Below, one piece after another: positions 5,785-42,717 of a stretch of DNA of 64,000 nucleotides. The notes beneath the pieces were generated by a model that saw nothing but the letters and a program-made list of their open reading frames with translations, was not told the origin of the DNA and did no database searches. Source of the stretch: Streptococcus sp. Marseille-Q5986 (lineage in GTDB: Bacteria > Bacillota > Bacilli > Lactobacillales > Streptococcaceae); NCBI RefSeq assembly GCF_946902915.1, contig NZ_CAMPPY010000001.1, forward strand, positions 186,001 to 250,000, written 5' to 3'. Made by a program: the position numbers and the translations under genes. Positions within the stretch are counted from its first letter, which is position 1. Every line of letters begins with the position of its first letter.

Positions 5785-7167
5785 TTAAGTCGTTCTCTTA
5801 TTGTATTTTAGGAGCTTATTTGCCATAAGTACCAATCCCATGTCAATTCTCACTTGACGCATCCCTCTCAGATTACCTCTCTTGTACCCCAAACAAGCCT
5901 TTATCTGTCCAAAGACAGGTTCCACATCAATCTTGCGTTGAGCGAAAATCTGTCTACCTTGGGGAGATAAAAGCGCCTGGCATTCTTTATTTTTTAAGTG
6001 CTGATAGCCTTCATTCATATACAGTCCCTTTTGAGGAGCTGATTCAGATTCATCAGCGTAGTAAACCTTGATTTCCTCTTGAAAGTCCGTCTCTGTTTTC
6101 TGATGTTTGATAGGGCGAAAACGATAACACCAGCCATCAGGATGTGTGTAGCTATCCTCCTTGCCATTATAGTACCAATTCCCTAAGTTTCTAGCTGACT
6201 GTGTATACCTTCTCTTTTGTTCCTTATCAAACATGGCATATTTCATCAGATGGTTCACCTCCTTTTCATCTAAACGAAGGAGGTTCTCTTCACTTCCATA
6301 TCCAGCATCTGCGACAACTGTCTTTAGGTCATGTGGATAGGTTTCAAGTAAGGGGAGAAGAGTCTTGGTATCTGTATCTGTTTTGGAAAAGCTGTTGCGA
6401 CCTACAAAAGTTTCTTGATCCTTCTCCTATTTTTCAGCACGTACTGAAAAATCATCTTTGACTTTAGGCAAGATTTTCTTGAGTTTCCGACCTTTGGTTT
6501 TACGCTCATCTTTTCCTTTAAGGAGTGTCTCCTCCATGTCTTGGCAATTCTTCTTCAAGGACGTGAGAGAGTTCAATCAACTGCCCTGAGGAGATAGGCT
6601 CTTGTGTCTCTAGTTCGATAGCTTGATGGATAAGAGGAATGATTTCTTCTTGACAATAAATCTGGATCTGTTCTTGCAGTTTGACGGAAAACTTGTCCCT
6701 TGCTTTTTTCCACACGAAACGATACTTGTTGGCATTGGCTTCAATCTTAGTCCCGTCAATACACAAACAATCTAAGATCACTAACTCTTCCGTTTTTAAA
6801 CGAAGATTGAGGTCGATGAAAAGATCACGAATGAGTTCTTCCATCCCTTCGGCGACACGAAAACGCTTGATGGTGCGATAGCTAACAACCAACTGCCCTG
6901 TTAGGTACTGCATGGCGAGATTTTCAATCATCATTTTTTCAATTTTTCGAGCAGAGAAAATCCCTTGTGAAGAGGCAAATAGAAGAGTAGATACAAGCAT
7001 TTTAGGGTGCTAAGACGGGCGAGCAGAGGCATGACAGAAGGTAGGGAAATGACGATCTTCCAAGGTATTCAGCACTTTTTCAATAGTAAAGACGAGAAGT
7101 CTTGTGGCAAGAAAGAACGAATTTCTAGTGGTAAAGTTGTTTGATTTTTGTTATAGTGAATATGCAT
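5785..7167 (-). pseudogene. IS1182-family transposase, broken
   Basis: The intact frame would start MHIHYNKNQTTLPLEI at 7167. In order one sees an early reading-frame break near 7080, an in-frame TAG at the RPS-stop-HPKM position near 7010, the segment SARKIEKMMIENLAMQYL, the catalytic IDGTKIEANANKY, a frameshift near 6520, an in-frame TAG near 6430 (AEK-stop-EKDQETFVG), and the C-terminal FGQIKACLGYKRGNLRGM. At least four lesions make it inactive. The downstream lesions are present identically in the copy at 41227, and the AEK-stop TAG also in the fragment at 45688. Confidence 0.88.
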
Positions 7168-7230
7168 GAGATAGCCTTTCTAAATGGTGTATTGTGCAAT
7201 TCTATTTTACCAAGACTATCGCAACCATGC

Positions 7231-7259
7231 AAAAAGCAACGGCAAATCCGTTGCTTTTT
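7231..7259. terminator. Symmetric terminator at the end of manLMN
   Basis: Perfect 12-bp stem AAAAAGCAACGG/CCGTTGCTTTTT with loop CAAAT. It has T runs in both directions and so can end transcripts of manLMN (minus strand). The same hairpin occurs at 42664-42692 beside the second IS copy, so it travels with the repeated block. Confidence 0.75.
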
Positions 7260-7315
7260 TGGGGATAAGAGACTATTGTCCTAGGGTTTTTTATCTATAT
7301 TCTCGATGGTTTGGA

Positions 7316-36836: not shown

Positions 36837-38042
36837 ATGTTTAAACGAAATTACCGGAAGAATATCGGTCTCATGGCTGGTGTGGAATTTTTTGCCTTTC
36901 TGGGCATTACCAGCTTTTGGATTCTATTTCTCAGTCAAAATGGGATGTCGCTTTGGCTGATTGGCTTATTGGAAAGTATTTTTCATGCCACCAGTGTCAT
37001 CTGTGAAATTCCCTCTGGAATGTTAGCTGACCGCTACTCCTATAAAACCAATCTATATTTAAGTCGAATAGCTGGGATTACGTCATCTATTCTCATGTTA
37101 CTAGGACAAGGTAATTTTTGGATTTACGCACTCGCTATGGTGGTGAGTGCCTTGTCTTATAATTTTGATTCGGGGACGAGTGCAGCCATGGTTTATGATT
37201 CTGTCGTGGAGGCTGGATTAAAAGAGCGCTACTTGTCCATCTCCAGTTTTATGTCAGGAGTGGCAGAAGGAACTCGGTCTTTGGGGACCGTTTTAGCGGG
37301 ATTTTTTGTCCATGGTCAATTACACTTGACCTACTATATCATGATTGCTACTTCTATAATTGTTCTTTTCCTAACTTGGATGCTAAAAGAGCCTAGTGTT
37401 AAAGCGCAAAAATCTGAGCGCTTGACGATGAAAAAAATAATCTGGACTGTCAAAGAGGAGTTGCGGAGAAACCCCAGTCTTTTTAGTTGGATGATTCTTT
37501 CCCAAATCATCGGGACGCTGATGTGCATGTTTTATTTTTACTATCAAAATCAACTGCCTGACTTAGAAGGGTGGCAGATTTCGATGGTCATGTTGATGGG
37601 TAGTGTTTTGAATATCTGGGCAGTTTATCTAGCAAGTAAGATTGGAAAGAAGTATTCAGCCTTAAAGCTCTTTCCAATTCTTGTACTCTTGACGGGAGGA
37701 ACTTATTTGCTTTCCTACTTCGGAACGCCGCTGATTTATATTTTGGTTTATTGGATCAGCAACGCCTTATATGCTCTCTTTCAGCCGATTTTTGATAATG
37801 ATTTACAAAAGCGACTCCCAAGTGAGGTACGGGCAACCATGCTAAGTGTCTACTCTATGATGTTCAGCCTAAGTATGATTATCATTTTTCCTTTGACGGG
37901 ATGGTTGATTGACTATCTAGGATTTGTAGTAGCCTTCCTTTACTTAGGGCTCATTTTAGTACTAGCCAGCTTTTTGCTATTTTTCATTTTGAAAGAGATG
38001 GCCGGAGCTTTGAAACTCAAAGAGGATGTTATTTCTAAGTAA
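36837..38042 (+). CDS. MFS transporter, likely efflux
   Basis: A 401-residue membrane protein with about 12 hydrophobic helices. The start is MFKRNYRKNIGLMAGVEFFA, chosen because AAAGGAG lies directly upstream; the frame is open 57 codons further but crosses the asnS terminator. The loop between helices 2 and 3 has CEIPSGMLADRYSYKTNLYL, a form of the MFS G-x-x-x-D-R motif. The family exports drugs or small metabolites; no substrate can be named. It lies between asnS and rpsF with its own inverted-repeat control region, which points to regulated expression. Confidence 0.85.
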   Translation: MFKRNYRKNIGLMAGVEFFAFLGITSFWILFLSQNGMSLWLIGLLESIFHATSVICEIPSGMLADRYSYKTNLYLSRIAGITSSILMLLGQGNFWIYALAMVVSALSYNFDSGTSAAMVYDSVVEAGLKERYLSISSFMSGVAEGTRSLGTVLAGFFVHGQLHLTYYIMIATSIIVLFLTWMLKEPSVKAQKSERLTMKKIIWTVKEELRRNPSLFSWMILSQIIGTLMCMFYFYYQNQLPDLEGWQISMVMLMGSVLNIWAVYLASKIGKKYSALKLFPILVLLTGGTYLLSYFGTPLIYILVYWISNALYALFQPIFDNDLQKRLPSEVRATMLSVYSMMFSLSMIIIFPLTGWLIDYLGFVVAFLYLGLILVLASFLLFFILKEMAGALKLKEDVISK

Positions 38043-38073
38043 TAAAGTTATTTTTTACTTTTATCTTTTTCAC

Positions 38074-38102
38074 TTGCTATCTGTCAGTTTTTCTAGTATA
38101 AT
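38074..38102 (+). promoter_or_regulatory. Promoter of rpsF-ssb-rpsR
   Basis: TTGCTA (38074-38079), 17-base spacer, TATAAT (38097-38102). The leader that follows has GTGAG/CTCAC (about 38111-38125) and a G/C-rich stretch before AAAGGAGGA; it could bind S6:S18 as known for such operons, but I could not fit the known motif. Confidence 0.75.
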
Positions 38103-38176
38103 GGTTTATTGTGAGTGAACCTCACTTACCCTTTGCAAAGACTGGGGGTCATTAGACCAAAAGGAGGAATATATCA

Positions 38177-38467
38177 ATGGCTAAATACGAAATTCTTTAT
38201 ATCATTCGTCCAAACATTGAAGAAGAAGCGAAAAACGCTTTGGTAGCACGTTTTGACTCTATCTTGACTGACAACGGTGCAACTGTTGTTGAATCAAAAG
38301 ATTGGGAAAAACGTCGTCTTGCATACGAAATCCAAGATTTCCGCGAAGGACTTTACCACATCGTTAACGTTGAAGCTAACGACGACGTAGCTCTTAAAGA
38401 GTTTGACCGTCTTTCAAAAATCAACGCTGACATTCTTCGTCACATGATCGTCAAACTTGGCGCGTAA
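38177..38467 (+). CDS. rpsF: 30S ribosomal protein S6
   Basis: The 96-residue S6 starts [20 protein letters not shown] and contains [36 protein letters not shown] and [11 protein letters not shown], the usual S6 core and end. S6 binds S18 on the central domain of 16S rRNA. The gene follows AAAAGGAGGAATATATCA. It is first in rpsF-ssb-rpsR, the conserved bacterial order, here interrupted by a group II intron after ssb. Confidence 0.98.
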
Positions 38468-38478
38468 GAAGGTAGATT

Positions 38479-38949
38479 ATGATTAACAATGTTGTACTTG
38501 TAGGGCGTATGACGCGTGACGCTGAGTTGCGTTATACCTCATCAAATGTAGCAGTTGCGACTTTTACTCTTGCAGTAAACCGTACATTTAAGAGTCAAAA
38601 TGGCGAACGTGAGGCTGATTTCATCAATGTCGTTATGTGGCGTCAACAGGCTGAAAATCTTGCTAACTGGGCTAAAAAAGGCTCTCTTATCGGGATCACA
38701 GGTCGTATCCAGACTCGTAGTTACGATAACCAGCAAGGACAACGTGTTTACGTAACAGAAGTCGTGGCGGATAATTTCCAAATGTTGGAAAGCCGTGGAG
38801 TGCGTGAAGGACATTCAGGTGGCGCTTATTCTGCACCAACTGCTGGTCAATCAGCACCTGCAAACCCAGTACCAGACTTTTCACGTTCTGAAAATCCATT
38901 TGGAGCAACAAATCCATTGGACATTTCAGATGATGATTTACCATTTTGA
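38479..38949 (+). CDS. ssb: Single-stranded DNA-binding protein
   Basis: The 156-residue SSB has an OB fold at residues 1 to about 105 ([69 protein letters not shown]). A Gly/Ser/Pro-rich linker follows, then the acidic tip DISDDDLPF that recruits replication and repair proteins. This is the essential SSB of the rpsF operon rather than the competence paralogue. Its stop codon lies at the 5' edge of the inserted intron; the coding sequence is intact. Confidence 0.98.
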
Positions 38950-39486
38950 GCGCTCCGTCAAGCTTCACTCAATCTTACAGGTGAAAGTCCTGTCCTAGCA
39001 ATTAACCAGTTCGGCTAGGTAGCTATGGCATACATATGCGGAGTAATCCAAATGTGGAAGCAATGCCGACTAACGCGTCCCCAGTGGCTAATTAGTCTTA
39101 ACTCAGTCTGTGGGAGCGAGCAAACTTGCAGTCCGTAGCGAAAGTGAACTTCCGATAAGTGTCGTTAAGGTCAATCCAGCAGGTATAACTGAGAGAGCTG
39201 GAATTGATGATAGTTTTAACTGGTGGACACTATCGTCAGAACTCCCGGCATATAGGCATATAGAAGATGGAATGTTAGGAAAGATGAGTGGGGAACGAAA
39301 GAGACCCTATTCTATCCCGCCTTCCCAGCGGGTCAGGTTAGATATAAGGCAAACACCGAAGTTCTAACTGACGTAGGAACAGGGAGTCGGAGAGGTTCAT
39401 AGTACCGATAATTGCACGAGACAACAAAACTCGGCATAGGGAAGGAGCCTTACCTGTATCACTCTTACCGATGAAAGAGGAACTAG

Positions 39487-40755
39487 ATGATTGCTCAAAA
39501 GGCTATAAACATCTTTGAAAAGGTTCGAGTATTTCAACGGAAGATATATCTATCAGCCAAGTCAGACTTGAGACTAGCTTGGTATTATGTGAAGAATAAC
39601 GAGGGCTCTGCTGGAATAGATGACCTTACCATTAAGGAAATCGAAGACAAAGGAGTTCAAAACTTCCTAGACGAGATACAAGTGCAACTGAAAAGCAAGA
39701 AGTATCAACCTAAAGCGGTCAAGAGGGTTTATATTCCCAAAGCTAACGGTAAGAAACGACCTTTAGGAATCCCGACAGTGAAGGATAGAGTAGTTCAAAC
39801 GGCAGTGAAAATTGTCATTGAGCCAATATTTGAAGCTGACTTTCAGGACTTCTCCTATGGGTTTAGACCTAAGCGAAGTGCAAACCAAGCCATAAGAGAG
39901 ATATATAAATATCTAAATTTTGGCTGCGAATGGGTCATTGACACAGACTTGAAAGGGTATTTTGATACCATTCCTCATGATAAATTGTTGTTACTGGTCA
40001 AAGAACGAGTGATTGATAAGTCAGTTATCAAGCTGCTCAGTCTATGGCTAGAAGCAGGTATCATGGAAGATAATCAAGTCAGAAGCAATATCCTTGGTAC
40101 ACCACAAGGCGGGGTTATCTCACCGCTCTTGGCTAATATCTACCTAAACGCTTTAGACAGATACTGGACTAACAATAGACTGGTAGAAAGAGGTCATGAC
40201 GCTCACCTAATACGATATGCGGACGATTTTGTTATTCTGTGTTCAAACAATCCAAAGAAATACTATAACTATGCCAAACGGCGTATTAGTAAATTAGGGC
40301 TGACATTGAACGAAGACAAGACAAGAATTGTGCATGCGGGCGAGGGATTTGACTTTCTGGGATACACGCTCAGAAAAGGGAAATCACTCAAGACAGATAA
40401 GTATAAAACCTATTACTATCCGTCGAGAAAGTCTATGAAAGCTATCAAGGGTAAAATTAAAGATATAACCCAACACGGGTAACATCTGAAATTATCTGAG
40501 GTGGTTGAAAAGTTAAATCCTATCTTGCGAGGCTGGGCTAACTATTTCAAATCTGGTAATTCCAAGCAGCACTTTAAGAGTATTGACAATTATGTGACAT
40601 ACAATTTGACGATAATGCTTAGAAAGAAGTACAAGAAACCTGGCAAGGGATGGCGAGAACATCCGCCTGCGTAGTATTATGACTATTTCGGGCTTGTATG
40701 CCTGAGAAAGATATGTACGAACTTTGACCATGATAATCAGAGGTATCGCAGGTAG
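39487..40755 (+). pseudogene. Group II intron reverse transcriptase/maturase with nonsense codons
   Basis: The frame starts MIAQKAINIFEKVRVFQRKI. It has the reverse-transcriptase blocks VYIPKANGKKRPLGIPTVKD, FSYGFRPKRSANQAI, VIDTDLKGYFDTIPH, GTPQGGVISPLLANIYLN and LIRYADDFVILC with catalytic YADD (about residues 245-248). Then comes the maturase domain with LNPILRGWANYFKSGNSKQH. An in-frame TAA at 40480-40482 ends the first open part after 331 codons. The same frame resumes and meets TAG at 40672-40674, then continues as YYDYFGLVCLRKIC to a stop at 40755. Both nonsense codons fall in the maturase region, so the RT blocks remain but splicing help is probably lost. Confidence 0.85.
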
Positions 40756-40800
40756 GGAACTTGCACTGAGGCCGTAACGTCGAAGACAGAAGATACTGGG

Positions 40801-40834
40801 AAAGCCGTGTAAGGGAAAACCTTACGCACGGTTT
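40801..40834 (+). ncRNA. Group II intron domain V
   Basis: A 34-nt hairpin: AAAGCCGTG pairs with CACGGTTT, a CG bulge follows, then TAAGG pairs with CCTTA around a GAAA tetraloop. The catalytic AGC triad is at 40803-40805. Size, bulge and tetraloop fit the domain V consensus, so the ribozyme core appears intact. Confidence 0.88.
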
Positions 40835-40915
40835 GACGAGGGGTCGCTGAGGAGATAAATTCAAACTAGAGACCTACTCTACAATGGACAATTAATACTA
40901 TAAAGGAGAAAAAAC

Positions 40916-41155
40916 ATGGCTCAACAACGTCGTGGCGGATTCAAACGCCGTAAAAAAGTTGATTACATTGCAGCAAACAAAATTGAATATGTTGATTACA
41001 AAGATACTGAGCTTCTTAGCCGTTTCGTTTCAGAACGTGGGAAAATCCTTCCTCGTCGTGTAACAGGAACTTCAGCTAAAAACCAACGTAAAGTAACAAC
41101 AGCTATCAAACGTGCTCGCGTAATGGCTTTGATGCCTTTCGTAAACGAAGGTTAA
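40916..41155 (+). CDS. rpsR: 30S ribosomal protein S18
   Basis: The 79-residue S18, [20 protein letters not shown], with [20 protein letters not shown] and [20 protein letters not shown], is complete. It binds the 30S platform with S6. Its own ribosome site (AAAGGAGAAAAAAC) lies downstream of the intron, so translation does not depend on splicing, only on transcription through about 1.9 kb of structured RNA. Confidence 0.98.
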
Positions 41156-41183
41156 AAAAGAGGTCCGGGTGGACCTCTTTTTC
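41156..41183 (+). terminator. Terminator of the rpsF-ssb-rpsR operon
   Basis: AAAAGAGGTCC/GGACCTCTTTT stem with loop GGGT, then T residues. Confidence 0.9.
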
Positions 41184-41213
41184 ATGAGCTAGAGATTTCC
41201 AATTGCAGAACTC

Positions 41214-42717
41214 TAGCTTTTTCATTTTAAGTCGTTCTCTTATTGTATTTTAGGAGCTTATTTGCCATAAGTACCAATCCCATGTCAATTCTCACTTGAC
41301 GCATCCCTCTCAGATTACCTCTCTTGTACCCCAAACAAGCCTTTATCTGTCCAAAGACAGGTTCCACATCAATCTTGCGTTGAGCGAAAATCTGTCTACC
41401 TTGGGGAGATAAAAGCGCCTGGCATTCTTTATTTTTTAAGTGCTGATAGCCTTCATTCATATACAGTCCCTTTTGAGGAGCTGATTCAGATTCATCAGCG
41501 TAGTAAACCTTGATTTCCTCTTGAAAGTCCGTCTCTGTTTTCTGATGTTTGATAGGGCGAAAACGATAACACCAGCCATCAGGATGTGTGTAGCTATCCT
41601 CCTTGCCATTATAGTACCAATTCCCTAAGTTTCTAGCTGACTGTGTATACCTTCTCTTTTGTTCCTTATCAAACATGGCATATTTCATCAGATGGTTCAC
41701 CTCCTTTTCATCTAAACGAAGGAGGTTCTCTTCACTTCCATATCCAGCATCTGCGACAACTGTCTTTAGGTCATGTGGATAGGTTTCAAGTAAGGGGAGA
41801 AGAGTCTTGGTATCTGTATCTGTTTTGGAAAAGCTGTTGCGACCTACAAAAGTTTCTTGATCCTTCTCCTATTTTTCAGCACGTACTGAAAAATCATCTT
41901 TGACTTTAGGCAAGATTTTCTTGAGTTTCCGACCTTTGGTTTTACGCTCATCTTTTCCTTTAAGGAGTGTCTCCTCCATGTCTTGGCAATTCTTCTTCAA
42001 GGACGTGAGAGAGTTCAATCAACTGCCCTGAGGAGATAGGCTCTTGTGTCTCTAGTTCGATAGCTTGATGGATAAGAGGAATGATTTCTTCTTGACAATA
42101 AATCTGGATCTGTTCTTGCAGTTTGACGGAAAACTTGTCCCTTGCTTTTTTCCACACGAAACGATACTTGTTGGCATTGGCTTCAATCTTAGTCCCGTCA
42201 ATACACAAACAATCTAAGATCACTAACTCTTCCGTTTTTAAACGAAGATTGAGGTCGATGAAAAGATCACGAATGAGTTCTTCCATCCCTTCGGCGACAC
42301 GAAAACGCTTGATGGTGCGATAGCTAACAACCAACTGCCCTGTTAGGTACTGCATGGCGAGATTTTCAATCATCATTTTTTCAATTTTTCGAGCAGAGAA
42401 AATCCCTTGTGAAGAGGCAAATAGAAGAGTAGATACAAGCATTTTAGGGTGCTAAGACGGGTGAGCAGAGGCATGATAGAAGGTAGGGAAAGGACTATCT
42501 TCCAAGGTATTCAGATAATAAAGACGAGATGGTCTTGTGGCAAGAAAGAACGGATTTCTAGTGGTAAAGTTGTTTGATTTTTGTTATAGTGAATATGCAT
42601 AAGATAGCCTTTCTAAATGGTGTATTGTGCAGTTCTATTTTACCAAGACTATCGTAACCATGCAAAAAGCAACGGCAAATCCGTTGCTTTTTTGGAGATA
42701 AGAGACTATTGTCCTAG
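41214..42717. mobile_element. IS1182-family element, copy 2 (defective)
   Basis: This is the second copy of the block at 5772-7284, in the same orientation and identical over the downstream 1.2 kb. It is nine bases shorter because of an indel near 42515. It ends TTGTCCTAG like copy 1. It lies between the rpsR terminator and the DUF1827 gene and includes a symmetric hairpin at 42664-42692. Confidence 0.8.
41227..42600 (-). pseudogene. IS1182-family transposase, broken (copy 2)
   Basis: The frame that starts at 42600 (MHIHYNKNQ) is cut by a short deletion with an in-frame TGA around 42510-42520, a TAG at the RPS-HPKM position, a frameshift near 41960 and a TAG near 41872. The last three are the same lesions as in copy 1. 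The upstream deletion differs from copy 1, showing some independent decay after duplication. Confidence 0.88.

Follow-up and report, generated by a model that had tools for sequence, protein, structure and literature searches.

The window analysed here, a stretch of 64,000 nucleotides on contig C1 of a 2.13-Mb draft Streptococcus genome in 17 contigs (G000), contains the rpsF-ssb-rpsR operon, in which a group II intron lies in the sense orientation between ssb and rpsR. Pfam matches to the S6, SSB and S18 families bear out the first-pass annotation of the operon, and an Rfam covariance search likewise supports its assignment of the insert, matching the D1–D4 model RF02003 at 38975–39143 (76.3 bits) and the D5/D6 model RF00029 at 40800–40882 (52.9 bits). 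The operon and insertion site are laid out as follows.

38177..38467, + strand: rpsF, ribosomal protein S6 (Pfam Ribosomal_S6)
38479..38949, + strand: ssb (ssbA), C-terminus D-D-D-L-P-F (Pfam SSB; junction; relatives' empty site TAA or TAG)
38948..40882, + strand: degenerate group II intron, 1935 nt, GAGCG ... CTCTAC (Rfam, junctions, empty site)
40883..40909, + strand: exon 2, the AA of the original stop followed by a spacer that carries the ribosome-binding site of rpsR (same sequence as at the uninterrupted site in genome G237)
40916..41155, + strand: rpsR, ribosomal protein S18 (Pfam Ribosomal_S18)

The intron boundaries rest on uninterrupted loci in related genomes. An unbroken TAA or TAG is present at the ssbA site in all 18 other loci read, and ssbB sites are uninterrupted in 12 of 13 other loci, the thirteenth (L095) having no match to the end motif; both counts exclude loci L074–L084 and L099–L111. 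The nearest empty ssbA site, that of G237, reads CCATTC TAATGGACAATTAATACTATAAAGGAG, and the window reads AATGGACAATTAATACTATAAAGGAG on the 3' side of the intron. The intron therefore occupies 38948–40882 and interrupts the ssb stop codon between its first and second base (T|AA), so that a 5' end earlier placed at 38950 has to be moved to 38948, inside that codon. Since the intron starts with GAGCG, unspliced ssb ends TTT-TGA, the stop consisting of T38947 and the first two intron bases (GA), and it follows from the sequence that exact intron removal would give TAA. The distance from the ssb stop to rpsR is 1966 nt with the intron and 31 nt without it, and exon 2 and the rpsR ribosome-binding site are untouched. 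Nine promoter-like sites at 38040–41300 (both strands), against 6.0 (sd 2.4) in shuffled sequences, make no case for an rpsR promoter inside the intron, and no terminator-like site was detected in the scan adjoining the insertion site on the plus strand. At 38944–38947 the last ssbA codon and stop base are TTT-T, whereas TTC-T prevails among the related ssbA genes read; in the two nearest relatives ssbB ends with a TTT codon, and gene conversion from the ssbB copy may have left its mark here. Behind rpsR, on the minus strand at 41227–42442, lies a probable IS transposase remnant split into two frames, adjoined by the second of two copies of the Streptococcus sRNA SpF25 (RF02432, at 7164–7264 and 42597–42697).

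A consensus fold of nine introns, in which 72 of 139 pairs show two-sided change in at least one sequence, defines the RNA domains.

38948..39299, + strand: domain I remnant, ends approximate, basal stem kept (consensus fold of nine introns)
39197..39198, + strand: site of a 41-nt deletion, EBS1 hairpin gone (comparison with relatives; G000 without an exact match to the hairpin pattern)
39301..39452, + strand: domains II and III, approximate (consensus fold)
40801..40834, + strand: domain V hairpin, intact (Rfam match, fold)
40840..40882, + strand: domain VI region, weakened stem (fold)

The domain V hairpin folds as originally proposed; the domain VI stem, described at the same time as apparently intact, is weaker than in the two relatives folded (-8.9 kcal/mol in the window versus -12.1 and -17.5). 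With the 41 nt deleted after 39197 went a hairpin that is present in the eight other introns of the consensus fold, and the EBS1-hairpin pattern has no exact match anywhere in G000. Domain I thus keeps its RF02003 match and basal stem and has lost its EBS1 hairpin, so that a domain-by-domain analysis finds the core incomplete. The idea that the ribozyme core may still function is not sustained, in view of this deletion, the weaker domain VI and a reverse transcriptase (RT) lacking 51 nt. At the intron ends the 3' AC fits AY, and the 5' GAGCG departs from GUGYG at its second base; GAGYG recurs in 12 of the 13 ssb insertions described below, the other (in genome G1186) having GATCG. By descent the window intron is a degenerate group II member. 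Eight extra bases at 39247–39254 (GGCATATA), a direct repeat of adjacent domain I sequence, are missing from the eight other aligned introns.

The intron-encoded protein is damaged at several points.

39487..40482, + strand: truncated intron-encoded protein ORF, 331 aa, RT domain only, RVT_1 (ORF list, Pfam)
39555..39586, + strand: 32-nt stretch with 97% identity to antisense leuS of the same genome (spans the RT deletion after 39566)
40480..40482, + strand: TAA stop, common to both intron copies of the genome (copy comparison)
40483..40671, + strand: maturase (GIIM) remnant, severed from the RT (Pfam GIIM, 64.3 bits)
40672..40674, + strand: TAG stop, window copy only (copy comparison)

Pfam recovers the expected RVT_1 domain, and TAA and TAG stand in the RT frame exactly where they had been read. 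RVT_1 is open, GIIM lies behind the TAA, confirming a broken maturase, and relative to related introns the RT lacks 51 nt after 39566, in both G000 copies. The 32-nt stretch at this deletion also matches leuS in four other genomes of the genus that were inspected, and it looks like a leuS-templated filler patch common to both copies.

That second copy, 99% identical, is on contig C6 of G000, where it again splits a stop codon as T|AA, in a gene named ssbB from its position before groES-groEL and from the kind of gene. It has the same EBS1 deletion, RT deletion and TAA, and a sense codon where the window has TAG. A search of the assembly for an intact copy of the same intron found none, the C6 copy being its only same-family member. 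The maturase once suggested to come from another copy thus has no evident source in the assembly: C6 shares the deletions and the TAA, and the other RT regions compared by identity (L008, L009, L010 and L187, whose score is equalled on C7 and C10) are 36–49% identical and match other D1–D4 models. The RT genes on C2, C7 and C10 (L187–L189) have equal scores and an open frame of 323 aa, L187 matching RF02001 and RF01998 and having no D5 at gathering score. Two further group II RT regions, C1:578984-579597 and C13:19877-20490, each in two pieces with three TGA within one matched stretch, are another pair of equally broken introns. No intron interrupts the end of a third ssb-like gene, on C2; the bases that follow the T of its stop (L014:1539-1552, GAGTGTTTTG) resemble the 5' end of the Javan introns of Streptococcus agalactiae prophages (GAGTGTTTCG), which may be chance or an intron trace.

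The meaning of the lost hairpin emerges from the pairing between intron and exon, which was scanned and evaluated in 12 introns, nine in ssb and three at ectopic sites.

38934..38939, + strand: IBS2 (TGATTT) (position from 12 relatives; window pairing 6/6)
38941..38947, + strand: IBS1 (CCATTTT), last 7 nt of exon 1 (position from 12 relatives)
39168..39173, + strand: EBS2 (AGGTCA), kept (scan, window check)

As a partner of exon positions -7 to -1 (EBS1), the loop of the deleted hairpin, mostly AGAAYGG, ranks first of 8,608 seven-base combinations, and EBS2 (ANRTCA, partner of exon positions -14 to -9) comes third of 8,640 six-base combinations, behind two EBS1 registers. Standard pairs account for 81 of 84 EBS1 and 66 of 72 EBS2 positions across the 12 introns, and the observed weighted scores were reached in fractions of 0.011 (EBS1) and 0.0009 (EBS2) of 20,000 exon shuffles, a calculation that ignores relatedness. 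One EBS1 mismatch occurs in three of the 12 introns (Efaec, L114 and the ectopic L165) and in G1186, and one EBS2 mismatch in six of the 12. EBS2 follows the codon before Pro, with G facing C or T of Leu, T facing A of Ile and C facing G of Val (the last in L115 only), and L114, with a Leu codon, is mismatched at that position. The AGAAYGG-type hairpin is deleted in both the window and C6 copies, and its loop was likely the window's EBS1, judging by the pairing in relatives. AAGATGG at 39264 could pair 7/7 with the window IBS1; relatives conserve this stretch, and the consensus fold has it base-paired. According to the available part of PMC3123198, EBS1–IBS1 pairing in the IIB intron RmInt1 is required and sufficient for excision in vivo, and without the hairpin, therefore, the intron should be unable to select its 5' splice site.

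On this evidence the window very probably holds a dead copy of a group II lineage that homes to the ssb stop codon, its capacity for precise splicing most likely lost. Both G000 copies have lost the EBS1 hairpin and some of the RT, their maturase domain is cut off, and therefore rpsR would probably be translated from an unspliced message 1935 nt longer than the original, or from processed products of it. SSB requires a free -P-F end for partner binding. Because the intron supplies the GA of a TGA codon, this C-terminus would be exact with or without splicing, and splicing would restore the original stop. Reading of rpsR from unspliced RNA is likelier than splicing by a maturase acting in trans; any change in the S6:S18 ratio is one that we infer. 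Residual or inaccurate splicing is possible, to judge by the retained domain V, EBS2 and domain I basal stem. Accurate splicing through a host factor or a trans-acting maturase, with rpsR expressed from spliced operon mRNA, is very improbable. It would be in keeping with the preservation of these elements and of domains II and III, and with the untouched exon 2 and rpsR ribosome-binding site, but it has to contend with the absence of the EBS1 hairpin from both copies, a maturase domain behind the common TAA, a weakened domain VI, and an assembly in which no intact same-family protein was found.

The lesions common to the two copies have a history of their own. The copies differ at ten positions, all at offsets 1726–1904 of 1935 and none in the first 1725, and the chance of all ten falling in the last 210 bases is about 2e-10 if differences were evenly spread. 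We read this clustering as the outcome of an older divergence followed by gene conversion that homogenised the first 1.73 kb. Short reads handle long identical repeats poorly, and the same 10/10 distribution could be expected had two different copies been collapsed over their first 1.73 kb in this 17-contig draft, which would make the common lesions an assembly artefact. Such a collapse is very improbable, since both copies lie inside contigs with flanks matching the empty loci of relatives, and gene conversion accounts for the mosaic equally well.

The lineage to which the window intron belongs was followed through 13 distinct ssb insertions, counting identical sites once, including both G000 copies and G1186 and leaving out ectopic copies. 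All 13 lie between the first and second stop-codon bases; unspliced, every one reads TGA, and spliced they would give six TAA, four TAG and three TGA. Two of the 13, L050 and L168, are in nearly the same ssb gene and differ in their 3' flanks. The closest relatives, at 83.6% identity to the 331-aa ORF of the window, occupy the same site in phage ssb genes of S. agalactiae prophages (Javan33, Javan26, Javan5 and phiGBSVK-E1, the last carrying GBSInt3), where they have an open protein frame, annotated 'retron-type RNA-directed DNA polymerase', and the EBS1 hairpin. Further carriers are an Enterococcus faecalis plasmid, the viral contigs L112–L115, Escherichia coli IncY and F-like plasmids, a Paraburkholderia plasmid, and G327, a genome of the same order as the window. 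The IncY plasmids we take to be P1-like, and one empty P1-like site that was read equals the two L050 flanks joined without the intron. In G327 the ssb intron adjoins a gene that is presumably AbiEii-like; RatA antitoxin RNA and rli28 sRNA matches lie a few hundred bases behind it (L162:3276-3609).

In the protein tree, ten ssb rows, the window protein among them, and one ectopic E. coli copy form a single clade (support 98/95), from which the Bdellovibrionales, Leptospira and other rows are separate; the Javan5, L168, G1186 and L178–L181 proteins are not part of this tree, which came with a warning of long outgroup branches. With one ectopic copy inside the clade, the ssb label needs two changes on the tree, and the Bdellovibrionales intron next outside it is not behind an ssb end. 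A held-out search with the EBS1-hairpin pattern and no protein gave one match in 398 genomes of the class, G1186, whose intron proved to interrupt the stop codon of an ssb gene flanked by rpsF and rpsR, EBS1 pairing 6/7 and EBS2 6/6, and the spliced stop being TAA. Its protein is broken into several frames and its EBS1 is kept, so that rpsF-ssb-rpsR has been entered in another genome of the class by a copy that has also decayed. Full-length open protein frames, a sequence criterion and no proof of activity, are found in 10 of 10 phage, plasmid or accessory-ssb copies and in none of three chromosomal ssbA or ssbB copies (Fisher 0.0035, or 0.015 with the two G000 copies merged), the ssb of G327 being classed as accessory from its neighbouring genes only.

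The ectopic E. coli copies, closely related to the introns on plasmids, lie antisense in hcaF (L166), beside an IS66 transposase (L165, L170) and on an IncF plasmid (L173). DNA upstream of them reads as an ssb tip in the frame of the intron (QDDIPF, TGIPF, NDKPF), and at two of the sites, which resemble ssb tip DNA, the exon frame has no stop codon. Thus DNA sequence is what is recognised, and the stop-codon position follows from it.

Surveys for further members returned few. Intron DNA matched 60 of 284 genomes of the genus, but the non-G000 matches listed span at most 153 nt, many being the 32-nt leuS stretch, and there was no near-full-length match in the 283 other genomes (one per species). 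Protein searches returned two of 395 genomes in the order (G000 and G327), six of 398 in the phylum at E<=1e-100 (G000 and five at 44–51% identity) and one of 105 in the family of G327; a scan of genome contigs gave one locus, L046, and three further protein scans gave nothing new. The EBS1-hairpin pattern hit one of 23 genomes in the family of G1186, at the same G1186 locus, and four stretches in viral contigs, all on those of the known members L112–L115; pattern matches L183 and L185 were rejected as false, having neither an intron end nor an RT frame. The protein profile found 50 loci in viral contigs, of which L112–L115 are 57–100% identical and the others at most 42%. The genome survey of Pseudomonadota covered E. 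coli, where a query of intron plus flank matched 71 of 5426 genomes, six over at least 80% of the query. Among the matches listed (60 rows), eight contain intron sequence, the other 52 being confined to the downstream flank of 247 nt, and the one flank-only row read, L171, is an empty site; this reading covered the records other than H134 (the record of L049), H136, plasmid CP057235 and two, two and one places in three chromosome records. L049 and L174 are without their original 5' junction, the 3' flank of L174 being that of L167, and the Serratia symbiotica copy L169 is degraded, its junction not found.

These observations suggest how intact members may travel. Target recognition by their RNA would depend on two pairings, one between EBS1 and the seven bases that end the exon, CCN-TTY-T (Pro and Phe codons plus the opening base of the stop), the other between EBS2 and six bases around the Asp-[Leu/Ile/Val] codons ahead of these. 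Insertion would take place between the first and second stop-codon bases; site and pairing come from comparison, and homing we infer. Accessory copies would ride on phage and plasmid ssb genes, the target doubling as the vehicle, and in this Streptococcus entry into ssbA of rpsF-ssb-rpsR and into ssbB would have been followed by decay. We consider it likely that a cross-phylum intron lineage has specialised on the DNA for the near-universal acidic SSB tip, carrying its own stop so that the C-terminal Phe stays exact even unspliced, with EBS2 re-tuned to the local Leu, Ile or Val codon, travelling on phages and plasmids with their own ssb and occasionally dying in operons of the host, rpsF-ssb-rpsR among them (two genomes of one class). 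That there is no ssb-specific lineage, the introns going to stop codons generally or the ssb cases being a few recent transfers, is very unlikely. The ectopic E. coli copies (L165/L170, L166, L173), the modest number of independent insertions and the near-identity of the ssb genes of L050 and L168 speak for it, and it is countered by 13 distinct ssb sites in at least two phyla, by the two ectopic sites that resemble an ssb tip where the exon frame has no stop, and by the variation of EBS2 with the Leu/Ile/Val codon. Very improbable too is an unspliceable intron retained for its effect as a spacer, reducing rpsR in relation to rpsF and ssb, for although the stop-to-rpsR gap of 1966 nt instead of 31 and a second, likewise broken copy in the same operon of G1186 would suit such a role, no near-full-length match was found in the other 283 genus genomes (one per species), and decay is ongoing.

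A lineage specialised on ssb would have a partial precedent. Group II introns in stop codons are already known from the Azotobacter groEL intron, which, going by the title of the paper, interrupts an essential gene in its stop codon (Ferat, Le Gouar and Michel 2003, cited in PMC8283771 and PMC4465626), and 'specialized lineages' of introns appear in Michel 2007, a work known by its reference. The Azotobacter intron resembles that of the window in its position and differs in its target, groEL rather than ssb. As described in the available part of PMC4465626, its subset has a large 5'-end insertion, and the consensus fold here shows none, a comparison by description only; an Azotobacter-like extra 5' hairpin was considered for the present introns and dropped, the fold pairing those bases with the 3' side of domain I. 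Closer in guide layout are RmInt1-type IIB introns without an endonuclease domain, for which PMC3123198, in the part available, gives IBS1 at -7 to -1, a one-base linker and IBS2 upstream, as here. The Javan33 protein similarly has no Pfam domain behind its maturase domain, but RmInt1-type introns have a different target and begin with GUGYG instead of the GAGYG of the ssb lineage. The group IIC introns S.p.I1 and S.m.I1 of pneumococcus and Streptococcus mitis B6, according to the accessible text of PMC2828477, are streptococcal and intergenic like the window intron; group IIC introns insert after terminators, as the consulted portion of PMC4424553 has it, whereas the window intron has an EBS1 plus EBS2 site at the ssb stop codon, an RF02003 match and, in the plus-strand scan, no terminator-like site next to it. 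The same portion reviews homing sites, terminators and attC as intron target types. From the excerpted texts of PMC6003770 and PMC8919778, respectively, bacterial group II introns seldom interrupt housekeeping or essential genes, for reasons that are debated, and broken intron-encoded proteins are common, about 30% of 1,949 representatives being incomplete. Literature that included few subscription journals yielded no report of ssb as a group II intron target, which thus appears unreported, and Michel 2007 may contain one.

The lineage points to a low-harm route into essential genes, by which an intron targets a gene with near-invariant final codons at its stop and supplies a stop of its own. 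The ssb tip would serve as one address for phages, plasmids and chromosomes alike, so that host-jumping can be tested, and the match between EBS2 and the codon it faces amounts to a natural experiment on an RNA guide following a protein constraint. The window would represent the end state of this course, in which dead introns persist in an essential operon.
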